A stretch of DNA of 64,000 bases. Origin: Caldimicrobium sp. Lineage in GTDB: Bacteria; Desulfobacterota; Thermodesulfobacteria; Thermodesulfobacteriales; Thermodesulfobacteriaceae. The translations under genes and the position numbers were made by a program. How positions within the stretch are numbered: position 1 is the stretch's first letter; every line of letters begins with the position of its first letter. Where the stretch lies: NCBI GenBank assembly GCA_025059715.1, contig JANXCE010000003.1, positions 1 to 64,000 on the forward strand. The letters are read 5' to 3'. Under the pieces are notes generated by a model. That model ran no database searches. It was given only the letters and a program-made list of their open reading frames with translations, and was not told the DNA's origin. Shown here in pieces: positions 49,542-58,531 of this stretch.

Positions 49542-50705
49542 GTGCTTACGGAGTTAGAGTTAAGAGATCTGATAAGTAAACTTGCTAATTACGAACCCGG
49601 AATATCAGACATCTTTATCCTTTCAGGTTATCCCTTTCAACTTGTTGTCTATGGAAAAATCAAGTCAGTATATCTTCCAGATTATCCCATTGAGCGCTTG
49701 AAACCCTTTCAGGTTGAGCAAATAGCCCTTCTTTTGCTTAGAGATAAAGCATACCTTTATTATAAACTTTTTAAAGATGGATACGCAGATTTATCTTACT
49801 ATGTTGATGATCAAACGCGTTTTAGAGTGAATATCTTTTCTCGTCAAAGAGTTTACAACATAATTATGAGGAAACTCTCTGGTAAGATCAAGAGCATCGA
49901 AGAACTTGGTTTGCCTCAAGTTTTTTACAAAATGGCCAAGGAAAAATTTGGTATCATTTTTGTTACTGGAGCAACAGGCCAAGGGAAGACTACTACTTTG
50001 GCAGCACTTCTCCACGAGATAAACAAGAATGAACCAGTGCACATTCTTACCTTAGAGGACCCTGTAGAATTCATACATACTCCAATAAAAGCAACAATTA
50101 ACCAGAGGGAGCTGGGAACAGATTTTTCAAGCTTTGCGGAGGGACTAAGAGCAGCCCTTAGGCAGGCACCCCATGTCATTCTGGTAGGAGAGATTCGGGA
50201 TCGAGAAACTATGGATATAGCCTTGACAGCTGCGGAAACAGGTCATCTCGTCTTTTCAACCTTGCACACCATCGGAGCTGGTCAAACTATAAATAGAATT
50301 ATTGGCTTTTATAGTAAAGAAGAAGAAAGCCAAATTAGACAAAGATTAGCCTCTGCCCTAAAGTGGATTGTGGGACAAAAGCTCCTGCCAAAAGTTGATG
50401 GAGGCAGGATAGCAGTATTTGACATTCTTTACAACAATCTCCGCGCAAGAGAAATTATACTCACAGGGGAGTCAGAAGGTAAAACCTTTTATGATGTGAT
50501 GACTCAGGGGACCCCCTTCGGAATGCAAACCTTTGATCAAAATCTCATAGAGGTGTTTAAAAAGGGCCTTATAGATGAAGAAACCGCCTATTACCACGCC
50601 TTAAGAAAAGACATAGTAGCAAGACAAATTGAATTAATTAAGAAACAAAAGGGAGTAGAGATTTCCATTGATAAGCTAGAAATTGAGGGAAAGGGAGTTA
50701 AATGA
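49542..50705 (+). CDS. pilU: PilT/PilU-like ATPase
   Basis: Second motor ATPase, 387 residues. Walker A is GATGQGKTTT near residue 148, Walker B APHVILVGEIRDRE near 208, and His-box FSTLHTIGAG near 237. It lacks the AIRNLIRE motif of PilT (NLRAREIILTGESEGK in its place), which is typical of PilU. The GTG start at 49542 lies 5 bases after pilT. It ends within an ATGA overlap with the next gene. Confidence 0.85.
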   Translation: MLTELELRDLISKLANYEPGISDIFILSGYPFQLVVYGKIKSVYLPDYPIERLKPFQVEQIALLLLRDKAYLYYKLFKDGYADLSYYVDDQTRFRVNIFSRQRVYNIIMRKLSGKIKSIEELGLPQVFYKMAKEKFGIIFVTGATGQGKTTTLAALLHEINKNEPVHILTLEDPVEFIHTPIKATINQRELGTDFSSFAEGLRAALRQAPHVILVGEIRDRETMDIALTAAETGHLVFSTLHTIGAGQTINRIIGFYSKEEESQIRQRLASALKWIVGQKLLPKVDGGRIAVFDILYNNLRAREIILTGESEGKTFYDVMTQGTPFGMQTFDQNLIEVFKKGLIDEETAYYHALRKDIVARQIELIKKQKGVEISIDKLEIEGKGVK

Positions 50706-51157
50706 CCATAGATTTAAAGGATCTGCTTATTGAAAAGCCAGTTACCCTTTGTTATTGGAAATTAGCGGAAAACTGGCAAGTTCTAAAGGATTACTTTGAA
50801 AGAGAAACGGAATTTAAGCTTATTTCCACACCTGAGGAAATATCATCTTGGATCACTGCCACTGATGTTCATAATATAATCATAGGTCTTGAGGATCCTA
50901 AGACTATTAAGGAAATAAGTCCGCACATAGAAGCCATACCTCTTGAGAAGAGACGAAAGATTTTCCTTTTATTAGTATCCATTGGAGTTACCACCCTTGA
51001 TCCAAAAGAGGCCTTCCTTTACTCGGTAAATCTTGTGCTTAATCCCGCAGATGTGAAGGAACTTGAACGAATTTATCTTAAGTGTAAACGCTATTGGGAA
51101 AGCCTGTATAGAGGTTTTAATGGTGTTTATCAAAAAGTTATGGAGGTTATTTTATGA
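50702..51157 (+). CDS. Unknown protein of the pilT/pilU cluster, possible degenerate receiver
   Basis: 151 residues, no confident family. Strand/helix pattern resembles a receiver fold: a buried strand HNIIIGLEDP near residue 60, then KIFLLLVSIG near 86, and a final NLVLNPADVKELERIYLKC near 112. Acidic phospho-site residues are not evident (E, D of GLEDP are one turn late). It overlaps pilU by 4 bases at the start and galU by 4 bases at the end, so it is translated with both. A role in controlling the pilus motors is plausible but unproven. Confidence 0.6.
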   Translation: MTIDLKDLLIEKPVTLCYWKLAENWQVLKDYFERETEFKLISTPEEISSWITATDVHNIIIGLEDPKTIKEISPHIEAIPLEKRRKIFLLLVSIGVTTLDPKEAFLYSVNLVLNPADVKELERIYLKCKRYWESLYRGFNGVYQKVMEVIL

Positions 51158-54430: not shown

Positions 54431-56050
54431 ATGTTAAAAGCAAGCAGGCCAAGGATTGAGAGAGTCAATCTCACTCAAAAGACGCACTTTCTTTTAGATT
54501 TCTCTTTGCGTCCTGCGGACCTTGAAGCTTACTTAGATGAATACCTTATAGGTCAAAGTGAGGCAAAGGGGATCATATGCACTAAAATTTGTACCCACTT
54601 TCACAAGGCCAAGGCTCTATTAACAAAAGAGCCTCGTAACGATTCTGTAGGATTTGTTAAAAATAATATAATAATTATAGGTCCCAGTGGTGTGGGTAAG
54701 ACCTATACGATTAAACTTATTGCTAAAAAATTAGGGGTGCCCTTTGTCAAGGGGGATGCTACCAAGTTTAGTGAGACAGGTTATGTTGGTGGAGATGTAG
54801 AGGATTTAGTCAGGGACCTTTACTGGGAAGCAGAAGGAGACATAGAGAAAGCTCGATTCGGCATCATATATCTTGATGAGATAGATAAAATTGCCTCTCC
54901 AGGAGATGTTATTGGTCCTGATGTTTCAAGAACAGGTGTGCAAAGGGCTCTATTAAAGCCCTTAGAAGAAACAGAGGTAGAAATAAAAACTCCCCAAGAG
55001 GGTTTTCAGCTCTTGGAATATTCAATGGAGGAGGGAAGACCTAAAAAGAAAAAGTTAACCTTAAACACGAAATACATTCTGTTTGTAGTAAGTGGAGCCT
55101 TTAATGGTCTTGAAGAGATTATTAAAAAAAGGCTTAAAAAACAAAAACTGGGATTTCTCTCGGAGATCGAAAGCAAAGAGAATTTAAAAGTAAATTATCT
55201 CAAGTTTGTAACTCCGGAAGATCTTGTTACCTATGGTTTTGAAAGGGAGTTTGTTGGGAGGTTTCCTGTAATCGCAGTTTTTGATCCTCTCACTGAAAAG
55301 GAACTTTATGAAATTCTTGCTAATCCCAATAGTGTAATAGTTCTCAATAAGAAAAGAGATTTTAAGGTATATAACATTGACCTTGCCTTCACTAACGAAG
55401 CTTTAGAAGAAATAGCCAAAAGGGCCTACTTAGAGGGCACAGGAGCAAGGGCGTTAGCTAGAGTATTAGAAAGATCACTTATTCCTTATGAGAGAGTTTT
55501 ACCCTCTGTTCCCATCAAAGCTTTAGGAGTTACAAGAGAACTAATTATGGACCCTGAGGGATATCTAAAAGGCCTGCTTGCTAACCCAAACTCTTCTACC
55601 TATCGAAAAGCTTACGAAAAAGCTCTAATTGAGGAAAAGAAAAGGATGATAAAATACATAGAGGGAAGGGCTAATATAAATAACGAAATACCCTTTTCCT
55701 TAACCCCAAAGAGACTGCACCTGCTCTTTGAAATGTATAAAAGGGAGGATGTGGAACTAATCCATGCCTTAGAAGATCTTATTAGCTTGTATCGTCAAAT
55801 AAAGGCCTATGAAACTACTTTTTCCAGAAGAAATCAAATTCAAGTCTCCTTTGCGGAAGAGACCATTGACTATATCATGGAAGAGGTATTAAAGAGGGAT
55901 CAGGGCGTATTTTCTTTTTGTGAGAAAACCCTCTCTAAATTAGAGTACACCTTTTCTATCCTTAAGGAGGCAGGTGTGAGATCCTTTTACATTGAAAAAG
56001 AGGCCTTTACAGATCAAGATAGATTTTTAACAAAGCTTTTACAAACTTAA
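54431..56050 (+). CDS. ClpX-like AAA+ ATPase without zinc-binding domain
   Basis: AAA+ unfoldase-like ATPase, 539 residues, longer than ClpX (about 420). Walker A GPSGVGKT near 84, pore loop GYVGG near 117, Walker B IIYLDEIDK near 144, and FVGRFPVIAVF with sensor-2 GARALARVLE follow. A loop KLGFLSE near 240 aligns with the ClpX tripeptide that docks onto ClpP. The N-terminal ClpX zinc finger is absent, and about 140 extra residues follow at the C-terminus, largely helical. True ClpX is presumably elsewhere. The next gene encodes a pseudo-receiver 2 bases later. It may be a specialised unfoldase. Confidence 0.85.
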   Translation: MLKASRPRIERVNLTQKTHFLLDFSLRPADLEAYLDEYLIGQSEAKGIICTKICTHFHKAKALLTKEPRNDSVGFVKNNIIIIGPSGVGKTYTIKLIAKKLGVPFVKGDATKFSETGYVGGDVEDLVRDLYWEAEGDIEKARFGIIYLDEIDKIASPGDVIGPDVSRTGVQRALLKPLEETEVEIKTPQEGFQLLEYSMEEGRPKKKKLTLNTKYILFVVSGAFNGLEEIIKKRLKKQKLGFLSEIESKENLKVNYLKFVTPEDLVTYGFEREFVGRFPVIAVFDPLTEKELYEILANPNSVIVLNKKRDFKVYNIDLAFTNEALEEIAKRAYLEGTGARALARVLERSLIPYERVLPSVPIKALGVTRELIMDPEGYLKGLLANPNSSTYRKAYEKALIEEKKRMIKYIEGRANINNEIPFSLTPKRLHLLFEMYKREDVELIHALEDLISLYRQIKAYETTFSRRNQIQVSFAEETIDYIMEEVLKRDQGVFSFCEKTLSKLEYTFSILKEAGVRSFYIEKEAFTDQDRFLTKLLQT

Positions 56051-56052
56051 GG

Positions 56053-56409
56053 ATGATACTTCTTGCTCTTTCAGAGGGAATCTTTCAAAAACTAAAAAAA
56101 ATTCTTGACGCCCACAAGATTAAATATCAATTAATAGAGAGTGGGGAGGAGCTTTTAGAAAAGGCTAAAAAGAACAAGGTTTCGTTAATTATTTTGGAGA
56201 AAGATCTTCCCCTCTTGGATGGTTTTGCTGTTACTCTATTACTGAAGTCTAACCCTAAAACAGCGCACATTCCTATTATTGCCCTTTGCAAGTGTAATTA
56301 CCCAGAGGAGGAAATTAAAGCTAAAGATAGTGGGGCGGATTTTATTATCTATTATCCCTTTACAGAGGAGGAAATACTTAATGTCATTAGAGAATTTGTT
56401 AAAAAATAA
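56053..56409 (+). CDS. Pseudo-receiver domain protein (CheY fold without phosphorylation residues)
   Basis: 118 residues with the length and order of a receiver domain. The N-terminal acidic pair is missing (LLALSEG). The acceptor Asp position is Glu49 (IILEKDLPLLDG), the Ser/Thr position is Cys79 (IALCKC) and the Lys position is Tyr101 (YYPF). It therefore probably cannot be phosphorylated; Glu49 could mimic the phosphorylated state. It begins 2 bases after the ClpX-like gene, so it may act as an adaptor for that ATPase. The stop is followed by GGGGAGG for ahbC. Confidence 0.8.
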   Translation: MILLALSEGIFQKLKKILDAHKIKYQLIESGEELLEKAKKNKVSLIILEKDLPLLDGFAVTLLLKSNPKTAHIPIIALCKCNYPEEEIKAKDSGADFIIYYPFTEEEILNVIREFVKK

Positions 56410-56426: not shown

Positions 56427-57611
56427 ATGATTGGTATATCTAAACTATATTGTGGCACCGTAGAAGCCTCTGATCCACTAAGGTATGGCAGACGAGCCAA
56501 GGACCTTCCTTCTCATCTTTTACAGTTTTCCATAGATAAAAAACCAGTAGTAGTTTGGAATGTAACTAGAGCTTGTAATCTTAGATGTATCCATTGTTAT
56601 GCCTCAGCGGATAATAATCCTGCAGATAATGAATTAACCACTCGAGAAGGTTTTGTCTTGCTTGAGGATTTAGCTCAGTTTGGTTGTCCTGTTGTTCTGT
56701 TCTCTGGTGGTGAGCCTCTGATGAGAGGGGATATTCTTGATCTCATCCAAAAGGCGGTAAATCTTGGATTGAGGGCAGTTTTATCAACTAATGGGACCAT
56801 GATTGATGAATACATGGCTAAGGAGTTAAAAAATTTGGGACTTTCCTATGTGGGTATAAGTCTTGACGGAATCGGAGAAGTTCACGATCGTTTTAGGGTT
56901 TCAAAAGGCTGTTTTGAAAAGGTGGTTAGAGCTATAGAAAACTGTAAAAGAGAAGGGATAAAGGTAGGTCTGAGATTTACTATAAATAAATTTAATGTTG
57001 AGGAAATACCTAAGATCTTTAACTTTGTGGAGGAACTAAGAATTCCCCGCATCTGTTTTTATCATTTGGTGTATGCAGGTAGAGGCAGTAAATTAATTGA
57101 ACAAGCATTATCTTTAGAGGAGACAAGAAAATGGGTTGATTTTATTATTGATCGCACCAAAGAACTTCACGATAAGGGACATAAGGTAGAGGTTCTAACA
57201 GTAGACAACCACGCAGATGGGCCCTATCTATATCTTCGTATGAAAAGGGAGGGCAATCCCCGAGCAGAAGAGGTTTATCAGTTGCTTTTGATGAACGGAG
57301 GTAATAACACTGGAGTAGGAATTGGGTGTGTCTCTTGGGATGGAGAAGTTCATCCTGATCAATTCTGGAGACACTATAGCTTTGGTAATGTCAGAAAGAG
57401 ACCCTTTAGTGAGATTTGGATGGACACCTCAGATCCCTTAATGGCAAAATTAAAAGAAAAAAAGAAGTATGTAAAAGGTAGGTGCTCAATGTGTAAGTTC
57501 TTAGAGGTTTGTGGAGGAAATTTTAGGGTGCGTGCTGAGGCTTTAACCGGAGATACCTGGGCACCTGATCCTGCTTGTTATCTAACTGATGAAGAAATAG
57601 GTCTAAAGTAA
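56427..57611 (+). CDS. ahbC: AhbC-type radical SAM 12,18-didecarboxysiroheme deacetylase
   Basis: Radical SAM enzyme of the alternative (siroheme-dependent) heme pathway; it removes two acetate side chains to give Fe-coproporphyrin. N-terminus MIGISKLYCGTVEASD and PSHLLQFSIDKKPVVVWN match AhbC. Cluster motif CNLRCIHC begins near residue 50. A C-terminal cysteine-rich SPASM-like region includes GRCSMCKFLEVCGGNFRVRA. The start ATG 56427 is 9 bases from GGGGAGG; a TTG six bases earlier is too close. NirJ/AhbD-type relatives are the main alternative. Confidence 0.88.
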   Translation: MIGISKLYCGTVEASDPLRYGRRAKDLPSHLLQFSIDKKPVVVWNVTRACNLRCIHCYASADNNPADNELTTREGFVLLEDLAQFGCPVVLFSGGEPLMRGDILDLIQKAVNLGLRAVLSTNGTMIDEYMAKELKNLGLSYVGISLDGIGEVHDRFRVSKGCFEKVVRAIENCKREGIKVGLRFTINKFNVEEIPKIFNFVEELRIPRICFYHLVYAGRGSKLIEQALSLEETRKWVDFIIDRTKELHDKGHKVEVLTVDNHADGPYLYLRMKREGNPRAEEVYQLLLMNGGNNTGVGIGCVSWDGEVHPDQFWRHYSFGNVRKRPFSEIWMDTSDPLMAKLKEKKKYVKGRCSMCKFLEVCGGNFRVRAEALTGDTWAPDPACYLTDEEIGLK

Positions 57612-57940: not shown

Positions 57941-58531
57941 ATGAGCAAGATTGAGAGAGCTCTCATCAGTGTGACTGACAAGAGTGGAATTGTAGAGTTT
58001 GCTAAGGAATTACATTTGCTGGGTGTGGAGCTAATTTCTACCGGGGGAACAGCAAAAACTCTGAGAGAAGGAGGGCTCCCAGTGATAGATATCTCCGAGC
58101 TAACTGGTTTTCCGGAAATTCTTGGAGGCAGAGTTAAAACCCTACATCCCTTAGTGCATGGAGGTATTCTGTTTAAACGCGAAGATGCGCAACATGTTGA
58201 GACCATTAAGAGAATGAATATTAGGCCTATTGATATGGTTGTCGTAAATTTATATGCCTTTGATAAAGTAGTTGCTCAAAGGGGAGACTTAGAGAGTGCC
58301 ATTGAGAATATTGATATTGGCGGCCCTACTTTACTTAGAGCCAGTGCTAAAAATTTCAAGTATGTCACGGTCATTGTGGATCCCCAGGATTATTGGCGTG
58401 TCTTAGAAGAGGTTAAAACTTATGGAAATACTACTTTAAAAACACGCTTTGAATTAGCCAAGAAGGTTTTTAACATAACCAGTAAATACGATGAAATGAT
58501 TTATAATTATCTCTCAACCTTTGAATTGTAG
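57941..58531 (+). CDS. purH: IMP cyclohydrolase domain protein (PurH N-terminal half only)
   Basis: 196 residues equal to the first domain of bifunctional Pur[53 protein letters not shown] and [17 protein letters not shown] are all present and in order. The chain ends where PurH would continue into the AICAR transformylase domain, with a normal stop and an adjacent gene. The break is a true gene end, not a frameshift scar, as far as can be seen. The transformylase must be encoded elsewhere, either as a separate PurH half or as PurP. Good ribosome site. Confidence 0.92.

Follow-up and report, generated by a model that had tools for sequence, protein, structure and literature searches.

Which kind of unfoldase is encoded at this locus, and what does the small receiver protein encoded directly behind it do? 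In the window (the whole stretch of DNA analyzed, 64,000 nucleotides from a heat-loving Caldimicrobium sp.), two open reading frames on the + strand, both starting with ATG, are separated by a gap of 2 bases (TAA-GG-ATG). The first (54431..56050) encodes a 539-aa ClpX-like AAA+ ATPase, referred to here as ClpXL, and the second (56053..56409) a stand-alone 118-aa pseudo-receiver, named pREC for a receiver without phosphorylation residues. Among named relatives, the locus is closest to one from Thermodesulfobacterium. An earlier note on the pair, made from the letters of the DNA, proposed a dedicated unfoldase with a constitutive adaptor and suspected that the pair might be undescribed; it made no mention of lid duplication or heme-gene context. 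In line with its suspicion, no description of the pair or of the ClpXL subfamily was found in the literature searched, which is not proof of absence.

ClpXL and the housekeeping ClpX

The plainest possibility is that ClpXL serves as the organism's housekeeping ClpX and nothing more. The highest-scoring named models for ClpXL are clpX models, and its AAA+ module is about 40% identical to ClpX. However, a canonical clpX is present in the same genome; its product has a C4 zinc finger (CSFC...CNEC) and an RKH loop, and the gene adjoins the only strong clpP match of the genome, near Lon. The presence of this gene, which the earlier note had asked to be checked, leaves the housekeeping assignment with next to no probability, and it was rejected. 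ClpXL also scored below the cut-offs of both NCBIfam clpX models (309 bits against 359, and 284 bits against 370.75). HslU, encoded elsewhere in the genome, is like ClpXL a ClpX-class AAA+ protein without a zinc finger, but it gives a lower match (153 versus 309 bits), and unlike HslU, ClpXL shows no I-domain-sized insert in the alignment or the model.

In a phylogenetic tree with HslU as root, canonical ClpX proteins, including the zinc-finger ClpX of this genome, formed one clade (support 100/98) and ClpXL proteins a separate one (100/99). The sister group of ClpXL consists mainly of Verrucomicrobiota sequences, together with Planctomycetota, Lentisphaerota and one Bacteroidota-labelled bin (joint support 96/93). 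Of the 296 genomes examined from the phylum, 141 have ClpXL, each in a single copy. On this phylogenetic evidence, ClpXL is a second ClpX-class paralogue, inherited vertically, that belongs to a separate, well-supported subfamily. The idea of a dedicated second unfoldase is thus strengthened by the coexisting canonical ClpX and by the placement of ClpXL in its own clade.

Motifs and C-terminal lid of ClpXL

All features of ClpXL lie on the + strand. Its large AAA+ domain (aa 26-284, 54506..55282) contains a Walker A motif GPSGVGKT (aa 84-91, 54680..54703), with K90 present in 74/74 relatives, a pore-1 loop GYVG (aa 117-120, 54779..54790; Y118, V119 and G120 in 74/74) and a Walker B motif IIYLDE (aa 145-150, 54863..54880; D149/E150 in 74/74). 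The LGF tripeptide (aa 240-242, 55148..55156), described earlier as resembling a ClpP-docking loop, does align to the ClpP-docking IGF loop of ClpX and is kept as [ILMV]GF in all 74 relatives. A first AAA+ small (lid) domain follows, with a sensor-2 motif GARAL (aa 285-385, 55283..55585; Pfam ClpB_D2-small), in which R340 is again present in 74/74. The tested Walker, pore-loop, Arg-finger and sensor-2 residues are accordingly invariant throughout the set. Since the catalytic and pore residues and the [ILMV]GF loop are kept, we expect ClpXL to be a working unfoldase that can dock ClpP; its class follows from sequence, motifs, fold and tree, and ATP-driven unfolding is what we infer from them.

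ClpXL thus has in common with ClpX the Walker A/B motifs, the GYVG pore loop, the Arg finger, sensor 2 and an [ILV]GF loop. It differs, besides its separate clade, by a longer conserved loop in the RKH region, by the duplication of its C-terminal lid and by the lack of an N-terminal zinc-binding domain. The zinc finger had already been reported missing from ClpXL, and an N-terminal CxxC was likewise missing in 73/74 relatives, the CxxC of the remaining one being located in what seems to be an over-extended start.

The C-terminus of ClpXL comprises about 155 extra residues, made up of a helical linker (aa 386-424, 55586..55702), which is absent from Verrucomicrobiota-type relatives, and a last segment of 115 residues (aa 425-539, 55703..56047). 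By HHalign profile comparison, this segment matches the first lid (probability 97.4, E-value 4e-11) and not the large domain (0.2%). In the model of ClpXL, a helix-strand-helix-helix-strand-helix order occurs twice. The C-terminus modeled in isolation reached a pLDDT of 90.6, and the best 50 matches listed in a PDB fold search with it were all ClpX chains, most of them aligning over 75-93 columns at about 3 Å, with E-values of about 0.01 that are limited by the size of the domain. The C-terminal part of ClpXL is therefore a tandem second AAA+ small domain, without a sensor-2 motif. The earlier description of a long novel C-terminal part was right as to the extra length and wrong as to the fold, which is a second copy of the lid. 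ClpXL has in this way lost the N-terminal zinc-binding domain, on which known ClpX adaptors rely, and acquired an extra lid at its C-terminus. No record of lid duplication for ClpX was found in the literature searched. A lid-duplicated ClpX paralogue also occurs in Verrucomicrobiota and allied bacteria, without conserved neighbours (loci L068-L076); the copy in L076, from a bin labelled Akkermansia muciniphila, belongs to the same clade and seems to stop before the second lid.

pREC and its pairing with ClpXL

The fold of pREC is that of a receiver by profile (PF00072 Response_reg, 46.7 bits for a cut-off of 30.2). Compared with CheY, however, the acidic pair D12/D13 is replaced by Ala/Leu, D57 by Glu49 (56197..56199), T87 by Cys79 (56287..56289) and K109 by Tyr101 (56353..56355), all on the + strand, which bears out the reported loss of every phosphorylation residue. 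The phospho-acceptor is lost family-wide, as none of 48 pREC homologues has Asp at its position and none has Lys at the K109 position. Glu occupies the phospho-Asp position in 39 of the 40 homologues from the order of the window genome and is restricted to that order, whereas the 8 from other families carry Arg, Lys or Tyr. The earlier idea that Glu49 acts as a constitutive phospho-mimic consequently fails as a general explanation. Purifying selection on pREC and ClpXL is similar, with a dN/dS of about 0.05 for the least diverged pair, the only one used, most dN/dS values being saturated.

To the Thr87 position the family has brought a Cys in 45/48 members, across two diverged lineages. pREC could on this ground be a ligand or redox switch gating ClpXL, with Cys79 sensing redox, metal or heme from within the dead phosphorylation pocket. 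The heme genes nearby offer a plausible ligand, and pseudo-receivers of the RitR and HP1021 types are redox-regulated through Cys, albeit located elsewhere in the protein (PMC12632262). Yet Cys79 may be buried and simply fill space in the structure, members of the pREC family have no heme-binding motif in common, and no pseudo-receiver using the exact Cys79 position was found in the literature searched. We regard such a sensor as unlikely.

A profile built from ClpXL-adjacent copies of pREC was searched against all 296 genomes. It returned 25 matches of at least 126 bits, followed by ordinary receivers from 96 bits downward. Each of the 25 is the gene immediately 3′ of ClpXL, in the same orientation, and none was found elsewhere in these genomes, so that the adjacency, another point singled out for checking, is conserved. 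The unit is kept in the order of the window genome and in a sister lineage, which goes beyond coincidence. Since the pREC-bearing ClpXLs form one clade (96/96), the pairing was most simply gained once and then kept, with an apparent loss in one family (f31, locus L157). Most ClpXLs have no pREC, so pREC is not required for ClpXL function in general.

Alternatively, pREC might serve the neighbouring heme enzymes AhbC and HemB, its adjacency to clpXL being incidental, as its neighbours in the examined loci are ClpXL on one side and a tetrapyrrole gene on the other. But the gene downstream of pREC is ahbC or hemB depending on the lineage, while ClpXL upstream is constant; moreover, most genomes have AhbC or HemB without pREC, and none of those sampled has pREC without ClpXL. 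Service to the heme enzymes thus appears quite improbable. With ClpXL rather than one heme enzyme as its constant neighbour, pREC is most simply read as a partner of ClpXL, although no ClpXL-pREC fusion was seen, which counts against it.

How such a partner could work was considered by comparison with known receiver-containing adaptors of ClpX. RssB had been invoked as an adaptor delivering substrates through its receiver, but it docks to the zinc-binding domain of ClpX via its C-terminal effector domain and not via the receiver (PMC7226468). Its D58E form retains strong sigma-S binding (PMC7226468). RssB resembles the role proposed for pREC in being a receiver-containing ClpX adaptor; its effector domain is absent from pREC and its zinc-binding target from ClpXL, and RssB-type docking was discarded on both counts. 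CpdR of Caulobacter is a closer model for pREC than RssB, since it is a single-domain, stand-alone receiver working with a ClpX-type unfoldase, as proposed for pREC. CpdR is active when unphosphorylated and reportedly binds the N-terminal domain of ClpX; we know of no conserved clpX neighbour for it. Unlike pREC, it retains its phosphorylation site and is regulated by phosphorylation, and its target domain is missing from ClpXL. CpdR delivers substrates to ClpXP (PMC11519897).

In the mechanism that we propose, pREC would have retained the receiver fold as a protein-protein interaction module once phospho-control was lost. Encoded in the same operon, it would probably bind to ClpXL and there recruit or position substrates; its exclusive adjacency and single gain point to this. 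Its role would be like that of CpdR for ClpX, minus the phosphate switch. Because ClpXL lacks the docking domain, the known CpdR and RssB docking modes cannot apply and docking of pREC would have to be of a new type, for which the second lid is a candidate site.

Heme-gene neighbourhood and putative clients

Directly after pREC lies ahbC (56427..57611, + strand), encoding the radical SAM enzyme 12,18-didecarboxysiroheme deacetylase (TIGR04546, 693.7 bits for a cut-off of 650) and conserved as the next gene. The ORF caller placed its start at a TTG (56421); the start that matches its homologues is an ATG at 56427. In a sub-group within one genus (L017-L021, L023, L024 and L057), AhbC is 70-76% identical to that of the window, as against about 77-91% elsewhere, even in more distant relatives; ClpXL and pREC of these loci follow the expected kinship, and their AhbC may have been exchanged for another or have evolved faster. 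Further along, purH (57941-58531) consists of the IMP-cyclohydrolase part alone (196 aa); relatives are equally short (196-202 aa), and it therefore looks like a true split gene and not a frameshift. Upstream of clpXL are priA and galU, and between galU and pilT/pilU-like genes is a 151-aa protein without a Pfam family (50702-51157), whose orthologues have an N-terminal zinc ribbon. Profile comparison gave no support for this protein as a second pseudo-receiver (2.4% probability).

Across about 75 ClpXL loci from some 50 families, the gene following ClpXL was ahbC in 28, a J-domain protein gene in 17, pREC in 13 and hemB in 7; in addition, the second gene was hemB in 26 loci, and in 18 the third was a radical SAM gene of the AhbC/AhbD type. 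In most of the lineages sampled, ClpXL thus belongs to a heme locus, and in others it adjoins a J-protein gene; its Verrucomicrobiota-type sisters show neither kind of neighbourhood. Where ClpXL and AhbC occur in the same genome, ahbC is directly downstream of ClpXL in 72/97 genomes, with at most pREC between them in the pREC clade. Their co-occurrence is moderate (counts 97/44/53/102, giving an odds ratio of 4.2 without correction for phylogeny), and a strict dependence of ClpXL on AhbC finds no support, as 44 ClpXL genomes lack AhbC while 97 have it. The J-domain proteins encoded directly after ClpXL (L047, L048, L050, L165, L186, L205 and others) are CbpA-like, are followed in some loci by a Lon-like AAA protease, and were never found together with pREC in the sampled loci; in those lineages, a J-domain protein at the gene position of pREC may serve similarly. 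In other loci (L049, L168, L180, L188 and L198-L200), the pair of genes directly upstream of ClpXL and heme genes encodes a kinase and a sigma-54 regulator resembling NtrY/NtrX.

The order clpXL-pREC-heme might have been inherited without joint function, each gene doing its own job, given that Desulfobacterota operons can be long and mixed and that the operon of the window also holds galU, priA and aro genes. Against this, the other genes around ClpXL vary, yet ahbC or hemB stays next to it in most of the families sampled, and pREC never leaves ClpXL; we hold mere inheritance of the order to be very improbable. Mitochondrial ClpX provides a precedent, as it acts on ALA synthase in heme synthesis (PMC7077987). 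It is likewise a ClpX-family unfoldase tied to heme synthesis, with a different client pathway, the link suggested for ClpXL being to the siroheme (Ahb) route and drawn from gene neighbourhood alone. We know of no lid duplication or pseudo-receiver for mitochondrial ClpX.

From gene order and this precedent, the heme pathway is our best guess for the clients of ClpXL, which would most likely be proteins of the siroheme-dependent heme pathway or proteins with heme cofactors. ClpXL would remodel these clients or pass them to the only ClpP of the cell, a handover suggested, like the clients themselves, by the gene neighbourhood, the conserved [ILMV]GF loop and the mitochondrial example. It could also be a remodelling chaperone that works independently of ClpP, as mitochondrial ClpX does on ALA synthase (PMC7077987). 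The J-protein neighbours in 17 loci would suit such a chaperone, and the second lid, lying beside the first, could change the ClpP face, but the [ILMV]GF loop in 74/74 relatives suggests that ClpP docking persists. We consider ClpP independence tenable, though somewhat short of probable; it differs from our preferred explanation in outcome alone, and both outcomes may occur.

Our preferred explanation, on which we would place an even bet, is that ClpXL is a second unfoldase of the ClpX type with a dedicated task, that pREC is its partner and works without phosphorylation, and that the substrates are probably proteins of the heme pathway or heme proteins. More doubtful is the fuller proposal that a widespread, undescribed, lid-duplicated ClpX subfamily is a dedicated heme-pathway unfoldase to which, in one lineage, a phosphorylation-dead receiver, docked on the extra lid in place of the lost zinc-binding domain, serves as a permanent adaptor or a heme/redox-sensing subunit. 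If true, ClpXL would be a bacterial counterpart of the mitochondrial link between ClpX and heme, made through a separate ClpX paralogue, and pREC would be a receiver domain that became fixed as the partner of an unfoldase and no longer depends on phosphate. With a single gain, strict pairing and a coexisting canonical ClpX, the evolution of such an adaptor would be directly testable in this family.
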